Origin: Enterobacter sp. RIT418
GTDB taxonomy: Bacteria; Pseudomonadota; Gammaproteobacteria; Enterobacterales; Enterobacteriaceae
DNA: 64,000 nucleotides
Direction: 5' to 3'
NCBI RefSeq assembly: GCF_003057745.1
Contig: NZ_QBJD02000001.1
Coordinates: forward strand, 310,001 to 374,000
The position numbers and the translations under genes are program-made. Below are positions 11,767 through 58,253 of the stretch, in pieces (the stretch's first letter is position 1; every line of letters starts with the position of its first letter). The notes under the pieces were generated by a model. The model was given only the letters and a program-made list of their open reading frames with translations, searched no databases and was not told the DNA's origin.

Positions 11767-11914
11767 ACCCCCTCCTTTTGTGAAAAAACATTAACACTAA
11801 ATTCAATTAAATCAATTATTTAGTTAATGAATGGGATGAGGGTTTATGCCAGGTTTTAATGATTACAGGATTCGTTCAAAGGAATGAGATGTAGCCGAGG
11901 AGCGAATTTTGAAT

Positions 11915-12019
11915 AAAAAAAAGCCCATCGTGGGAGATGGGCAAAGACTACACACAGCAATTCGTTGTTTCACTCAGGGAATTCCATGCTTATAAATCAA
12001 GATGTTGATTTATAACCGT
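11915..12019 (-). ncRNA. rprA: RprA, Hfq-dependent small RNA activating rpoS translation
   Basis: The reverse strand reads ACGGTTATAAATCAACATCT at the 5' end, then GAGTGAAACAACGAATTGCT, and ends in the terminator GCCCATCTCCCACGATGGGC plus eight T. This matches E. coli RprA nearly base for base over its 105 nt. RprA pairs with the rpoS leader (and other mRNAs) and is made when the Rcs envelope-stress relay is active. In E. coli it also lies next to ydiK, as here. Its terminator is about 150 bp upstream of the metallopeptidase gene, on the same strand. Confidence 0.95.
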
Positions 12020-25040: not shown

Positions 25041-25127
25041 ATAGCGAAACGGAGTGTCTGGTTATGCGCCTATAAGTAAACGCGAGGGCCGTGTTAATTT
25101 TTGATTTTTATACGTGACTCTTCAACG

Positions 25128-26345
25128 ATGCAAATTCATAAAACCACAACACCGATTTTCGTGAGTAAGTTTCAGTGCGTTGGCTCGGAATGCTTAATTT
25201 CCTGCTGCCGCGGCTGGACAATCAGTATTGATAAGAAAACCCATCAGAAGTATGTCTTTTCCGCACATCCGGAAATAGCAGCAATCGCAAAAGATAACCT
25301 AATCCTTCAGCGTAAAGGCAAAAGTAATTATTCCAGAATCAGGCTGGACGAAAAGGGTAATTGTCCTTTTATCGATGAGAATAAGCTGTGCATGGTGCAC
25401 CGGGATTTAGGCGAAGCGGCGCTATCGCCGACCTGCGCGACCTACCCGCGATTATCGTCACGCTATCAGGACGAAACGCGAAAAAATATGACGCTTTCCT
25501 GTCCGGAAGTGGTGCGGCGCGTGCTGTTTGACCCTGAGGCGATGCTGCTGCAGGAGCAGGATGAGCTGCTGGCGGTGTATAAAACCAACCTTATCGGCCA
25601 GCGTCAGTCTGTACCGCAGGCTAATCAGGTGATCCATCTTATGGCCTGGAATCTGATTCAATCGCCTTCAAAGGGCATAGAAGAAAACCTGATGGCGCTG
25701 GCGCAGCTAATCCTGATGCTGCAGCACGTTAGCTTTGACCTGCACGGCCAGTACGAGCAGGTTGAGCAATTTTATGAGGGGCTGCTTCGGGAATTGCAGA
25801 GCGGAAAATCGCTGCTGGATGCAAATAGCGTTGCGCGCTCAAGCACGATGAAATACCTCGCCTTATCTATTCTGGGCACCAACGTGGCCCGCGATTCGGC
25901 CCGGGATGGCTTCGTTCTGGAAGGGCACCGGCAAATTGCGCGGTATCTGGATGTGAGCAGCCTGGCCGACCCGGAGGAGATTGACGAGAAGTTCGTCGGC
26001 ATTAACCAGCAGTGGCAGACGCTGTGTGAGGATTCCTGTATTTCAGAACCGCACGTGCTGCGCAACTATCTGCTCTACAAACTGTATAGCGGCTATTTCC
26101 CCGGCATAGAGACGGCAACCATCATGCGGCAGTTCTACCGCATCGTCCTCGATTTCTTCTATTTAAAAACGTTCCTGAGCGTCAAATCCATGCACGACGA
26201 GCTTGAACAGCAGACGGTGATGAAAACCATTGCCAGCTTCTCGGAAAAGACCCTGCACAACCAGACCATCGACGCGCGAATGGATTTTGCGATCGATAAA
26301 ATCAACGGCGGTGACGATCTTACCTGCCTGCTGCTGATTGGCTAA
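25128..26345 (+). CDS. fliB: Flagellin lysine-N-methylase FliB-like protein
   Basis: A 405-residue protein of the FliB/YkgJ-like cysteine-cluster family. The N-terminal cluster is CVGSECLISCCRGW (residues ~17-30), with CPFI, CMVHRDLGEAALSPTCATYPR and SCPEV following, a likely Fe-S or zinc site. Salmonella FliB methylates lysines on flagellin. Here it is far from any visible flagellin gene. The ATG at 25128 (MQIHKTTTPIFVSKFQC) fits the family; an in-frame TTG at 25101 is possible because GAGGG lies upstream of it, and no good ribosome site precedes the ATG. Confidence 0.82.
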   Translation: MQIHKTTTPIFVSKFQCVGSECLISCCRGWTISIDKKTHQKYVFSAHPEIAAIAKDNLILQRKGKSNYSRIRLDEKGNCPFIDENKLCMVHRDLGEAALSPTCATYPRLSSRYQDETRKNMTLSCPEVVRRVLFDPEAMLLQEQDELLAVYKTNLIGQRQSVPQANQVIHLMAWNLIQSPSKGIEENLMALAQLILMLQHVSFDLHGQYEQVEQFYEGLLRELQSGKSLLDANSVARSSTMKYLALSILGTNVARDSARDGFVLEGHRQIARYLDVSSLADPEEIDEKFVGINQQWQTLCEDSCISEPHVLRNYLLYKLYSGYFPGIETATIMRQFYRIVLDFFYLKTFLSVKSMHDELEQQTVMKTIASFSEKTLHNQTIDARMDFAIDKINGGDDLTCLLLIG

Positions 26346-26381: not shown

Positions 26382-28532
26382 TCAGACGTTTGCCGCGTCA
26401 AGCAGGCGCGTCTTCATATTCTGATAGGCCGCGGCGGCAAAATCCTCCGCCCAGCGCTGATCGTCAATCGCCTCGAGCCGTACCGCGCAGTATTTCGTTT
26501 CCGGCGTTTTGGATACCGGGTCGAGATTATCCTGCGTCAGCTCGTTGCAGGCGCCAATCCACCACTGACAGGTCATGTAGACCGCCCCGACGTTGATGCG
26601 CTCGCTGACGCTGGCGCGGGTAATGACTTTCCCCCTGCGCGAACGGACCCACACCAGCTCGCCGTCGGTAATGCCGAGGTTGTCCGCATCGACAGGGTTT
26701 AGCTGCACCCGTCCCGGCTCGTCGGCCAGGCTTTGCAGCGCCGCGCAGTTGCCGGTCATCGAGCGGCAGGAGTAGTGTCCGACCTCGCGCACCGTGCAAA
26801 GCACCAGCGGATAGTCCGCGTCCGGGACTTCCGCAGGCGCGCGCCACTCGGCGGCAAAAAGCTGCCCCTTGCCGCTTGCGGTATCGAAGCGGTTGTCTTT
26901 GTACAGATAGGGCGTACCGGGATGATCGAGGGTAGGGCATGGCCACTGGACGTGGCCCATTTCGCCCATTTTCTCGTAGGTCACGCCGTAGAACAGCGGG
27001 CACAGCTCGCGCATTTCATCCCAGATTTGCCGTTCGGAGTCGTAGCGCATCGGATAGCCCATTTCAGTGGCGAGCAGGCTGATAATGTCCCAGTCGCGCT
27101 TGACGTTGCCGCGGGCGTCGATGGCTTTACCGAAGCGCTGGAAGCCGCGGTCGGCGCAGGTAAATACGCCGCCGTGTTCGCCCCAGGAGGTGGCGGGAAG
27201 CAGCACGTCCGCCACCTCGGCCGTTTTGGTCATAAAGATGTCCTGAACCACCACAAAATCGAGCGCGTCGAAGCCGCGGCGAACCAGGCCTAAATCCGCT
27301 TCGGTCTGAAGTGGGTCTTCCCCCATGATGTAATAGGCCTTGATTTTGCCTTCAAGGGCAAGGTGCGGGACTTCGGTGATGCGGGTACCGACGCTAGCGT
27401 CCATCTTGTCGGGATCAATCCCCCAGGCATCGGCAAATTTCTGCCTGACGGCGGGGTCGGTCACCGCCTGATAGCCGGGGAACATGTTGGGCAGGACGCC
27501 CATGTCGCAGGCCCCCTGAACGTTGTTCTGCCCGCGCACCGGGCCAACGCCGACCGCCGGACGGCCCAGGTTGCCGGTGAGCAGCGCCAGGCTGGAAAGC
27601 CCTTTCACCACGTCGACGGCCTGACCAAACTGGGTGACGCCCATCCCCCACATGACGGTTGCCGACGGGGCGGCGGCAAAGGTGCGCATGGCCTGGCGTA
27701 TCTCCTGGGCCGGTACGCCCGTCAGGTGCTCCACGCGCTCCGGCGGGTAGTTCTCGACGGTTTTTCGGTAGGCATCCAGCCCCTGCGTAAAGCGCGCCAC
27801 GTAGTTTTTGTCGTACAGCTCCTCTTCCAGCAGCACATAGCCAAAGGAGTTGACCAGAGCCATATTGCTGCCGTTTTTCAGCTGAAGGTGCTGGTCGGCG
27901 ATGCGGGCCGTTTCAATGCGCCGCGGATCGCAGACGATAATTTTTGCGCCATTCTCACGCGCTTTCAGCACGCGCCTGGCAACGATGGGGTGTGAATCCG
28001 CGCAGTTGTAGCCAAAGACCAGCAGGCATTTCGAGTTTTCAATGTCGCTAATGGCGTTGCTCATTGCGCCGTTGCCGAGCGTCTCCTGCAGCCCGGCAAC
28101 CGAAGGCCCGTGGCAGACGCGCGCGCAGCAGTCGACGTTGTTAGTGTGCAGCACCGCGCGGGCAAATTTTTGCATCACGTAGTTGGTTTCGTTCCCTGTT
28201 CCGCGTGAAGAGCCGGTGGTCATGATGGCGCGGGGGCCGAACTCCGACCTAATGCCGCTCAGCCTGTGGGCGGTATAGCGAATGGCCTCTTCCCAGGTGA
28301 CTGGCGTAAAGGCGTCGCCCTTACGATAGCGGATCATCGGCTGCGTCAGGCGAGGGGTAAGCAGGCGAGTGTCGTTTAAGAAGTCCCAGCCGTAAAATCC
28401 TTTCAGGCAAAGCGTGCCCTGGTTGGTGACGCCGTCTGCCGCTTCGGCGCGGATGATACGGTTATTTTCAACGACAAGATTGAGCTTGCAGCCTGCGCCG
28501 CAGTAGGGGCAGACGGTGGCGATTTTTTTCAT
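26382..28532 (-). CDS. Formate dehydrogenase H-like molybdoenzyme with Cys instead of Sec
   Basis: A 716-residue protein closely related to E. coli FdhF, which oxidises formate to CO2 with a bis-MGD molybdenum cofactor and one 4Fe-4S cluster. The cluster ligands are Cys8, Cys11, Cys15 and Cys42. CCARVCHGPSVAG places a cysteine at residue 140, exactly where E. coli FdhF has selenocysteine; the codon at 28113-28115 is TGC, not TGA. Later motifs QNNVQGACDMG, GEDPLQTEADLG and the C-terminal CTVREVGHYSCRSMTGNCAAL are intact. No electron-transfer partner (hycB-like) is adjacent. A sigma-54 promoter lies ~66 bp upstream. The gene is best named an fdhF paralogue. Confidence 0.88.
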   Translation of the reverse strand: MKKIATVCPYCGAGCKLNLVVENNRIIRAEAADGVTNQGTLCLKGFYGWDFLNDTRLLTPRLTQPMIRYRKGDAFTPVTWEEAIRYTAHRLSGIRSEFGPRAIMTTGSSRGTGNETNYVMQKFARAVLHTNNVDCCARVCHGPSVAGLQETLGNGAMSNAISDIENSKCLLVFGYNCADSHPIVARRVLKARENGAKIIVCDPRRIETARIADQHLQLKNGSNMALVNSFGYVLLEEELYDKNYVARFTQGLDAYRKTVENYPPERVEHLTGVPAQEIRQAMRTFAAAPSATVMWGMGVTQFGQAVDVVKGLSSLALLTGNLGRPAVGVGPVRGQNNVQGACDMGVLPNMFPGYQAVTDPAVRQKFADAWGIDPDKMDASVGTRITEVPHLALEGKIKAYYIMGEDPLQTEADLGLVRRGFDALDFVVVQDIFMTKTAEVADVLLPATSWGEHGGVFTCADRGFQRFGKAIDARGNVKRDWDIISLLATEMGYPMRYDSERQIWDEMRELCPLFYGVTYEKMGEMGHVQWPCPTLDHPGTPYLYKDNRFDTASGKGQLFAAEWRAPAEVPDADYPLVLCTVREVGHYSCRSMTGNCAALQSLADEPGRVQLNPVDADNLGITDGELVWVRSRRGKVITRASVSERINVGAVYMTCQWWIGACNELTQDNLDPVSKTPETKYCAVRLEAIDDQRWAEDFAAAAYQNMKTRLLDAANV

Positions 28533-28597
28533 CAATAACAGACCTGTTAATAAATGAAGCGATGTTTAACTGGAGCATTCCAGTCCCGTACCCGGCT

Positions 28598-28615
28598 AAA
28601 GCAGGATCCGTGCCA
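28598..28615 (-). promoter_or_regulatory. Sigma-54 promoter of the FdhF-like gene
   Basis: On the minus strand TGGCACGGATCCTGCTTT matches the sigma-54 consensus TGGCACG-N4-TTGCW with one mismatch and has exact GG-N10-GC spacing. Transcription would begin near 28590, leaving a ~58-nt leader before the ATG at 28532. Confidence 0.82.
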
Positions 28616-28658
28616 CATCGTAGCATCTTGATTATCAGGAGGTTATTGCGAGCAAAGT

Positions 28659-28700
28659 CGTGTCATCGTCAACAGGTTCGTCATATGTGACGATGACACG
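28659..28700. repeat. 13-bp inverted repeat, candidate enhancer site
   Basis: CGTGTCATCGTCA (28659-28671) is repeated inverted as TGACGATGACACG (28688-28700) with a 16-bp spacer. It lies 44-102 bp upstream of the sigma-54 promoter, a usual distance for an enhancer-binding protein site. No T run follows on the minus strand, so a terminator for ariR is less likely. Confidence 0.65.
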
Positions 28701-28723
28701 TCAGGAAGGGGAGTACAGCCGGG

Positions 28724-29002
28724 TTAAAGATCGTCCATGGTGTAGCCCACAACAATCTCAAGCGTTTTGCGGATAACATCGGCCCGAACAACGTCGTGCG
28801 TGCCTTCAAGCGTCTGGATCAGCCACAGAATAATGGCCTTATTGGTGATATGCCCTTCAGTGGCCTGGATACAGCGTACTGCCGTAGAGAAAATAGCGGA
28901 CTCTTCAGCAAAACGATCGCCTGCGTGACGGAAATACTCCGACAAAGGGCTTTCATGAAATGCCGATGTGTACTCGGGTTGAATCTGAATATTCTGTCTC
29001 AT
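28724..29002 (-). CDS. ariR: Biofilm/acid-resistance connector protein of the AriR/YmgB family
   Basis: A 92-residue protein matching E. coli AriR (YmgB): LSEYFRHAGDRFAEESAIF, GHITNKAIILWLIQTLEGT and ADVIRKTLEIVVGYTMDDL. AriR is a small dimeric helical protein that influences biofilm and acid resistance, and the ycgZ-ymgA-ariR products act through the Rcs phosphorelay. GGTGAGA precedes the ATG. It is the third gene of the operon, 29 bp after ymgA. The fourth E. coli gene, ymgC, is absent. Confidence 0.88.
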   Translation of the reverse strand: MRQNIQIQPEYTSAFHESPLSEYFRHAGDRFAEESAIFSTAVRCIQATEGHITNKAIILWLIQTLEGTHDVVRADVIRKTLEIVVGYTMDDL

Positions 29003-29031
29003 TTATTCTCACCGTAGCTGTTAGGTTGTAG

Positions 29032-29352
29032 TCAATGTATTTTCTTTGGATCGGACGGTTTTCCTTTACCAAATAAGGGCACTACATTGTCTTCCGTTAT
29101 CCGAAGAGATCCCTCTCCGTGAGTCCTTCCCTGTGCGGTGCGGCGATGTTTAAACGCGGCACGGTTTTCGCCTACGTCGGCAATAACGCGCGCTATGGCT
29201 TCCCGCCGCCCGGGATCTTTTTCATGCGTCTTCATGCTCCATAGACGCTCGATTAACGTGCCTGTCGTGAGCGGCCCGCGCTCTTTCAGTAGCGAAAGAA
29301 CGGCTTCTCCGATAAGCGAGTCAATCAGCTTGTCTACGTCACTGCTTTTCAT
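29032..29352 (-). CDS. ymgA: Two-component connector protein of the YmgA family
   Basis: A 106-residue protein. MKSSDVDKLIDSLIGEAVLS, LLKERGPLTTGTLIERLWSM and the C-terminal PKKIH align with E. coli YmgA (about 90 residues; MKTSDNERIKYEITGQAVLQ, ending in IH). The ATG at 29350-29352 was chosen over a codon eleven residues upstream because the sequence then begins like YmgA and does not overlap ycgZ. The middle stretch (~65-95) is longer than in E. coli. It lies 10 bp after ycgZ and is probably coupled. Confidence 0.75.
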   Translation of the reverse strand: MKSSDVDKLIDSLIGEAVLSLLKERGPLTTGTLIERLWSMKTHEKDPGRREAIARVIADVGENRAAFKHRRTAQGRTHGEGSLRITEDNVVPLFGKGKPSDPKKIH

Positions 29353-50265: not shown

Positions 50266-50406
50266 AGAAATTCCTTTTTTACGCTGGAGATCGAAAGCTC
50301 ACGGCTTGAGTGAGTAACGAATGTATAAGCAGAAATCGCAAGACGCGTGGTTGTTTTAATGAATTTTCGTATTGAAAATAGGAAGGAATACAGAGAAGAA
50401 ATAGAA

Positions 50407-50483
50407 TGGTGCGTCTGAATGGACTCGAACCATCGACCCCCACCATGTCAAGGTGGTGCTCTAACCAACTGAGCTACAGACGC
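50407..50483 (-). tRNA. tRNA-Val (anticodon GAC), second of a tandem pair
   Basis: The minus strand begins GCGTCTGTAGCTCAGTTGGT, has the anticodon stem-loop CCACC-TTGACAT-GGTGG (GAC), the T-arm GGTTCGAGTCC and a 3' CCA. It is 77 nt long. It matches one of the E. coli valV/valW pair. Confidence 0.97.
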
Positions 50484-57701: not shown

Positions 57702-57745
57702 TAAATGTCACTCCAGACCCTATCCTAATATCCTGAAAAATGGGG

Positions 57746-57761
57746 AGGTAAACGTTTGCCT
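57746..57761. promoter_or_regulatory. PurR operator upstream of purR
   Basis: AGGTAAACGTTTGCCT (minus strand AGGCAAACGTTTACCT) is a near-perfect PurR box about 45 bp before the start and appears the same as the recalled E. coli purR O1 site. Confidence 0.85.
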
Positions 57762-57998
57762 TCTCTCACCCTTATTACGCAATGTTGAATTGCGACACGC
57801 CGGGAAAACGACACAGGACGTCAGGAGGGGGTCAATGGCCGGTACGCTAATAAATTTAGCGTGGAATTTTGTCCTATCTTGAGGAAAAGGGGAAGAGCAA
57901 AAGTGGTTATCATTTTAAATCCGGGAAGATTTTTGACGTAAACTGTGCAAAAATGAGCAAGCTCACTTTCCGTGTGGGGATTAAAAGGAGAAAAATTG

Positions 57999-58088
57999 AT
58001 GAGTTCCGATCTTAAGTTTTCGCTGATGACCACCGTTATTGTGCTGGCGCTGATTGTTGCCGGCGGGCTGACGGCTGCACTGCACTGA
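57999..58088 (+). CDS. ynhF: Small membrane protein YnhF
   Basis: A 29-residue protein: MSSDLKFSLMTTVIVLALIV then AGGLTAALH. It is one membrane helix and matches E. coli YnhF (29 residues). AAGGAGAAAAATTG precedes the ATG at 57999-58001. Function unknown; it lies between purR and ydhP, as in E. coli. Confidence 0.92.
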   Translation: MSSDLKFSLMTTVIVLALIVAGGLTAALH

Positions 58089-58253
58089 TTTTGAGGGGGG
58101 GAGAGTCCTCTCCCTCCTGCTCGTCTCTAGATTGTTACTTCTGTGGCAAAAATCTTTTGCCAAATTGTTAACTTCTCATTTTTTGTGATTGATGTCATGC
58201 TTTTGACTTCTTTGTTCTGTGTCGTGCTATGACGCGGCATCCGGAGTAAACGC

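Follow-up and report, generated by a model that had tools for sequence, protein, structure and literature searches.

An FhlA-dependent sigma-54 promoter in all likelihood drives a stand-alone, selenium-free formate dehydrogenase H (FDH-H) in the window, a stretch of 64,000 nucleotides from Enterobacter sp. RIT418 (G000:C1:310001-374000 of a 4.56-Mb genome). The sequence-only reading had assigned this gene, Cys-fdhF, to an FhlA-type regulon, and six lines of sequence evidence support the assignment. FhlA is the preferred activator because a matrix derived from hydN operators ranks the site first in the window, because the half-sites are common to the hydN promoter of the same genome, because 44 of 80 orthologues of Cys-fdhF have a hydN-fdhF-hypF setting, because the spacing to the -24 element is conserved, because the genome encodes an FhlA that is 85% identical to that of E. 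coli, and because the one near-complete genome of the genus without FhlA, G039, is also without the site and has a decayed Sec-fdhF promoter. Cys-fdhF would be a new member of the FhlA/sigma-54 regulon, an ordinary but well-supported addition to a regulon that is itself known, and is very probably switched on along with the hydrogen-making machinery of the cell. Apart from the primary FhlA-site papers (Leonhartsberger 2000, Schlensog 1994, Maier 1996), which the search did not cover, none of the open-access papers among the matches listed treats FhlA control of a stand-alone Cys-fdhF, as judged from titles and the opening of abstracts.

The features of the locus are as follows.

26382-28532, minus strand: Cys-type fdhF, FDH-H paralogue of 716 aa (ORF, VCHG motif, TIGR01591)
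28536-28550, minus strand: near-invariant leader of 15 nt, TTAACAGGTCTGTTA, immediately ahead of the Cys-fdhF start region, exact in 76 of 81 orthologues
28598-28615, minus strand: sigma-54 promoter TGGCACGGATCCTGCTTT, with the -24 GG at 28614-28613 and the -12 GC at 28602-28601, exact GG-N10-GC
28659-28700, no strand: perfect 13-bp inverted repeat, arms 28659-28671 and 28688-28700, 16 nt apart
28661-28671, minus strand: half-site R, TGACGATGACA, downstream arm, 12 bp from M (alignment of 15 loci, genus loci)
28678-28683, minus strand: half-site M, TGACGA, in the repeat loop (alignment of 15 loci)
28679-28692, minus strand: palindromic core CGTCA-CATA-TGACG (GTC-N6-GAC), CGTCATATGTGACG, 77 bp to the -24 element
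28688-28698, minus strand: half-site L, TGTCATCGTCA, in the upstream repeat arm, with the same sequence as the hydN half-sites at G000:C12:83617-83642
28724-29002, minus strand: upstream neighbour, ORF of 92 aa on the same strand as fdhF (ORF list)

The Cys-type formate dehydrogenase

The identification of the paralogue as a Cys-type FdhF is borne out by the VCHG motif of its product, where the second copy in this genome, at C22, reads TGA. The two paralogues are 64% identical, and the C22 copy has one internal TGA. The product is a full-length alpha subunit, scoring 895 bits against the NCBIfam model TIGR01591 (Fdh-alpha, cut-off 666). The active-site selenocysteine of the FDH-H family is absent, Cys taking its place in the window copy and in all 80 relatives fetched. 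By record name the closest fdhF relatives belong to Enterobacter and close kin, and the genus sample consists of the 61 genomes assigned to the genus of the window. The gene is flanked by the 92-aa ORF, which we take to be AriR/YmgB-like, and by a convergent ORF at 25101-26345, and it lies outside any hydN-hypF operon.

The sigma-54 promoter

The sigma-54 element with exact GG-N10-GC spacing is confirmed and is the top RpoN-matrix match of the window. With the matrix given in Table 2 of PMC7658346, it scores 18.3 of 21.4 bits, the next match on either strand of the window reaching 13.7. The TGGCAC-N5-TTGCW context of sigma-54 promoters is present, with the first T of TTGC being C in the window, and the looser pattern TGGCACG-N5-TGCTTT occurs at three places in the 4.56-Mb genome. 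Upstream DNA was fetched for 42 stand-alone loci of the genus, from which the per-locus site counts come, and 41 of the 42 have a sigma-54 element that scores 15.6 bits or higher. L206 (G013), fetched with the genus loci, is without the strict core, has a sigma-54 score of 12.8 and is excluded from the core and spacing counts below. The distance from the promoter to the ATG is 67-125 bp across stand-alone loci. A small inverted repeat, ACTGG...CCAGT, sits just past the expected transcription start (28569-28584, minus strand); it is found in 14 of 15 aligned Enterobacter-group loci and is missing from L022.

A putative three-half-site operator

The perfect 13-bp inverted repeat was recovered as described; when the 191-bp intergenic stretch was shuffled 3000 times with its dinucleotides preserved, the longest arm was 11. 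Its distance had been given as 44-102 bp upstream; the lower figure is right, while the upper one is the distance from 28598 to 28700, and the repeat lies 44-85 bp from the first -24 base (28615). On the fdhF strand the operator reads TGTCATCGTCA (L)-N4-TGACGA (M)-N6-TGACGATGACA (R)-45 bp-TGGCAC...TGC. The 13-bp repeat is L paired against R, with M inside its loop, and the GTC-N6-GAC spacing that had been noticed there is indeed kept by the core. In 15 aligned Enterobacter-group loci, L, M, R and the promoter are conserved islands in otherwise changed DNA.

The extent of conservation differs between the core and the repeat. Of the 14 Enterobacter-group relatives with names (L015-L027, L069), all but L022 have a perfect repeat of 11-15 bp, and 33 of 41 genus stand-alone loci have one of at least 10 bp; the two samples share genomes and are not independent. 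The inner core CGWCA-N4-TGWCG is present in all 41 genus loci, and TGTCATCGTCA-N4-TGWCGA with at most one mismatch in 34. Because all 41 keep the core but only 33 keep the repeat, the core is the constant part of the operator and the long repeat a frequent elaboration of it. The earlier picture of an FhlA element thus holds in that an FhlA-type site is present, but its constant unit is the core rather than the 13-bp repeat. An alternative core, CGACA-N4-TGTCG, is found in L022 and in the genus loci L189, L196, L197, L198 and L204, where TGTCGA recurs 12 bp after M. For a putative FhlA operator, the arrangement of three half-sites is unusual.

Relation to the hydN operator

In a second departure from the earlier picture, the nearest template of the Cys-fdhF operator is the hydN operator. 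A hydN matrix was built from 27 upstream sites of operon-type loci (29 found, two spurious ones left out) and contains no site from stand-alone fdhF promoters. It ranks 28678-28698 (minus strand) first among 127,960 positions of the window, with 33.1 of a possible 33.9 bits, the next non-overlapping match reaching 7.7. Of the 36 other stand-alone loci, 34 have their best match to this matrix 60-320 bp upstream of fdhF, several Citrobacter matches being weak (7-20 bits); in L063 and L085 the best match is elsewhere and the promoter site comes second with 6.8 bits. Each of the 22 stand-alone loci of Klebsiella/Raoultella or Citrobacter type carries a core-type match upstream.

The 11-mer TGTCATCGTCA occurs at six places in the genome, four of which make two inverted pairs, one at Cys-fdhF and one before hydN. 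The other two exact copies (C9, C40) were set aside as single sites, read by eye to be without a partner arm. The hydN promoter of this genome, whose HydN is identified by NF007658 (370 bits), carries TGTCATCGTCA-N4-TGACGATGACA, a 26-bp palindrome, and in E. coli TGTCATCGTCA-N4-TGTCGATGACA is found upstream of hydN. The Cys-fdhF promoter resembles the hydN-hypF promoter in its TGTCATCGTCA-N4-TGWCGA half-sites and in having a sigma-54 element 64-76 bp downstream. The hydN palindrome is closed, whereas at Cys-fdhF a 12-bp shift of the right arm, with retention of the inner TGACGA, gives three half-sites. The regulator of the hydN-hypF promoter is FhlA in E. coli and Salmonella (PMC11841067, PMC3844500), hydN-hypF belonging to the E. 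coli formate regulon (PMC11841067) and both hydN-hypF and fdhF being FhlA/sigma-54 targets in Salmonella (PMC3844500).

The two promoters also differ at -12, where hydN promoters often have GA or GT while the Cys-fdhF promoter has GC. Such GA or GT in place of GC is seen in the hydN promoters of relatives, for example at L133:7054-7071 (minus strand), and the Salmonella hydN sigma-54 site is likewise of this GA or GT kind at -12 (PMC3844500). The sigma-54 pattern has no match in three of the eight hydN promoters compared (L222-L224), which read TGGAAC. Wholesale copying of the hydN promoter was considered and rejected, as the DNA between site and -24 element is not clearly alike in eight pairs: six fall below the 95% shuffle level and two, L133/window and L223/L056, lie exactly at it.

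A second relative is the promoter of Sec-fdhF, in E. coli as in this genome, which shares the CGTCA-N4-TGACGA core, a sigma-54 element and an FDH-H product. It differs from the Cys-fdhF promoter in its locus, its selenocysteine product and its spacing between core and -24 element, which is 85 bp in both genomes as against 77 bp.

The CGTCA-N4-TGWCG core is common when taken alone, with 50 strand matches genome-wide and 21 in a reversed control. The RpoN scoring of core loci covers the 23 that have locus ids, drawn from the 50 strand matches; two have a score above 14 within 220 bp, Cys-fdhF (18.3) and Sec-fdhF (14.6), one more scores 12.1, and hydN is below 11. The published 14-column FhlA matrix is weak and not selective in the window. 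Its best match at the repeat is 12.0 of 17.1, a value reached by five of 127,974 window positions including the repeat itself; on the core it gives 8.6, which 61 window positions equal or exceed, and the E. coli hydN site scores only 7.0.

Spacing between operator and promoter

From the start of the core to the -24 element, 62 of 64 stand-alone loci (41 genus loci, the window and 22 others) measure 74-79 bp. In the hydN promoters of operon-type loci the same distance is 74-76 bp in 35 of 42 and 65-67 bp in the remaining seven; it is 66 bp for hydN of this genome and 75 bp for E. coli hydN. Steps of about 10 bp between these values point to a need for activator and polymerase to lie on a fixed face of the helix relative to each other. 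The other two stand-alone loci, at 90 bp, do not fit such steps and count against the helical-phase picture. In a circular test on ten promoter classes, periods of 10.5, 10.0 and 9.75 have p values of 0.006, 0.014 and 0.022, which are illustrative only, the classes having been chosen by hand after the data were seen.

FhlA, its absence from one genome of the genus and alternative readings

The FhlA encoded in the genome scores 1433 bits against NF011958 (cut-off 830), and a stretch of 28 residues near its C terminus, presumably the HTH, is identical to that of E. coli FhlA. FhlA matches are present in 59 of the 61 genus genomes, the exceptions being G001 and G039; in 11 of the 59 the match is only 71-72% identical and could be a paralogue. 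G001, which is 78% complete, has the site and no FhlA match. Among near-complete genus genomes, 57 of 58 have FhlA and 57 of 58 have the site (among the matches listed), G039 being the exception both times. The genome of G039 is complete, with no site within one mismatch and only a TGA-type FdhF. Upstream of its Sec-fdhF the core and the -24/-12 element are lost, whereas both are kept in all seven readable FhlA-bearing genomes, this one included; eight were compared, and L214, the Sec-fdhF of G040, was left out as its start was not located. The lack of Cys-fdhF is not special to G039, since G027, G030, G038, G040 and G056 keep FhlA and have only a TGA-type FdhF. G039 looks like a natural loss of the formate regulon, in which site and regulator have gone together, as a single event in one genome.

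The genome has 11 PF00158 matches, of which seven are strong, so that another enhancer-binding protein (GlrR, NorR, NtrC, PspF or the protein at C6) might use the repeat beside a genuine sigma-54 promoter. Besides FhlA, the strong matches are GlrR, NtrC, NorR, PspF, TyrR and one at C6 without family assignment. The repeat ends in TGTC/GACA, as we assume GlrR sites do, and its left arm contains one GT-N7-AC match, which we take to be a NorR-like motif. Control by one of these proteins is nevertheless improbable. The 200 bp upstream contain no match to TGTC-N10-GACA, to the NtrC-type GCAC..GTGC or to GTCA-N3-TGAC (consensus motifs), the operator is also found upstream of hydN in eight of eight genomes compared, hydN being an established target of FhlA in E. 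coli and Salmonella, and the sites are lost together with FhlA in G039. The C6 protein (L008, G000:C6:95989-96486) is a sigma-54 activator of 343 aa that reaches no cut-off in the best 25 of the 29 NCBIfam models matched.

The repeat starts 23 bp past the stop codon of the upstream ORF and is perfectly paired, as would be a transcription terminator or other RNA hairpin of that gene, unrelated to fdhF. The chance of this is very small, as a scan of 28500-29050 finds no terminator-like site, and there is no T-run at the repeat. What is conserved, moreover, is the half-site in the loop and the spacing to the -24 element rather than the pairing: eight of the 41 genus loci lack long pairing yet keep both core and spacing, and the core is kept in Klebsiella- and Citrobacter-type loci despite other upstream genes. 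It is equally hard to credit that the sigma-54-like element is a silent remnant and that an unrecognised sigma-70 promoter transcribes fdhF. There is one weak sigma-70-like match, at chance level (one found, 1.0 expected), while 41 of the 42 genus loci fetched, and all 22 stand-alone loci of Klebsiella/Raoultella or Citrobacter type, preserve GG-N10-GC together with its distance from the core.

Proposed mechanism and implications

Under control by FhlA, fermentation would lead to a build-up of formate, and formate-bound FhlA would occupy half-sites L and M, which together form the GTC-N6-GAC palindrome. Half-site R, which lies roughly a helical turn beyond them, might aid occupancy. FhlA would then loop to the sigma-54 polymerase waiting at the -24/-12 element 77 bp away, and the promoter would be opened. 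Synthesis of Cys-FdhF would then coincide with that of hydrogenase 3, the Hyp proteins, HydN and Sec-FdhF, giving the cell a second FDH-H that is free of selenium. From the sequence comparisons we infer the binding of FhlA, activation by formate, the role of R and the use of Cys-FdhF in formate hydrogenlyase.

The Cys-FdhF of Pectobacterium atrosepticum is the main, working formate dehydrogenase of FHL-2 (PMC7384014). Because of this work and the predicted co-regulation, we infer that Cys-FdhF may serve here as a backup FDH-H for hydrogenase 3 or as a partner of HydN. Since Pectobacterium FHL-2 depends on HyfR, a relative of FhlA, according to the same paper, FhlA is not necessarily the protein that recognises this family of operators in every organism. 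PMC6004506 refers to a hydN-fdhF(Cys) unit in Serratia and gives a Cys variant of the E. coli enzyme as 20-fold less active, and PMC3349551 has oxygen limitation raising hydN and fdhF in Pectobacterium and Dickeya.

If control by FhlA is true, a widespread genus has a second, selenium-free FDH-H under the formate sensor, and formate hydrogenlyase activity in the genus may be predicted to persist without selenium. The operator model, with half-sites spanning 21 to 26 bp at a fixed distance from the -24 element, would be sharper than the published 14-column FhlA matrix, and one and the same operator would serve a gene that is part of an operon in certain genera and isolated in the rest.

Operon setting and possible relocation of Cys-fdhF

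The 44 operon-type orthologues comprise 42 with a HydN-type motif at most 900 bp upstream and two, L088 and L090, with only a hypF motif downstream; the other 36 of the 80 are stand-alone. The order hydN-fdhF-hypF is found in Kosakonia, Kluyvera, Buttiauxella, Pectobacterium and others, followed in several genomes by an ORF like a nickel transporter, while this genome has hydN-hypF-nickel transporter without fdhF. Such operons share with the window an orthologous Cys-FdhF and the same, or nearly the same, leader, and they have the FhlA-type site at the operon head. No sigma-54 promoter is seen directly before fdhF in operon-type loci, whereas the gene has its own here and in Klebsiella/Raoultella- and Citrobacter-type loci.

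Because the stand-alone copies lie in at least three different neighbourhoods (L015/L022, L056, L063), separate relocations are suggested. On a tree built by a quick method, the stand-alone label needs at least two changes, of which the starred branches force only one, and the tree gives no direction. L210 (G013:C1:216000-219000), an operon-type Cys-fdhF of 82% identity that lies away from the hydN-type site of its genome, has a weak sigma-54 match and an imperfect core and is perhaps a further relocation.

The leader TTAACAGGTCTGTTA has one exact copy in the genome and is common to the operon and stand-alone settings among the 81 orthologues. Its positions, -18 to -4, are each kept in 77-81 of the 81, compared with a mean of 47 for the third positions of codons 3-40. 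Five orthologues depart from it: L094 is without the leader, and L046, L051, L065 and L072, which are Pectobacteriaceae and Erwiniaceae by record name, have one or two changes. A stable hairpin was rejected as an explanation, since five stretches fold no better than their shuffles (z -1.6 to 0.9). The leader may possibly serve translational control.

A tentative scenario, which we hold to be possible though rather doubtful, is that Cys-fdhF left the hydN-hypF operon several times (in Enterobacter/Lelliottia, Klebsiella/Raoultella, Citrobacter and perhaps G013), that FhlA control was each time rebuilt at the same helical phase from the -24 element instead of being carried along, and that the gene kept its own near-invariant leader as a second, translational layer of control.

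Small RNAs of the window itself are RprA and STnc550 (11913-12019, 57702-58091 and 50313-50445, including an HPnc0260 match); the HPnc0260 match overlaps a tRNA on the opposite strand and is therefore probably spurious. Four Citrobacter loci, picked for a search because the sequence had been noticed there, have a small RNA gene of the RyhB family (RF00057) immediately upstream of Cys-fdhF (L030:4734-4798, L066:4732-4796, L085:4730-4797 and L063:4728-4795).
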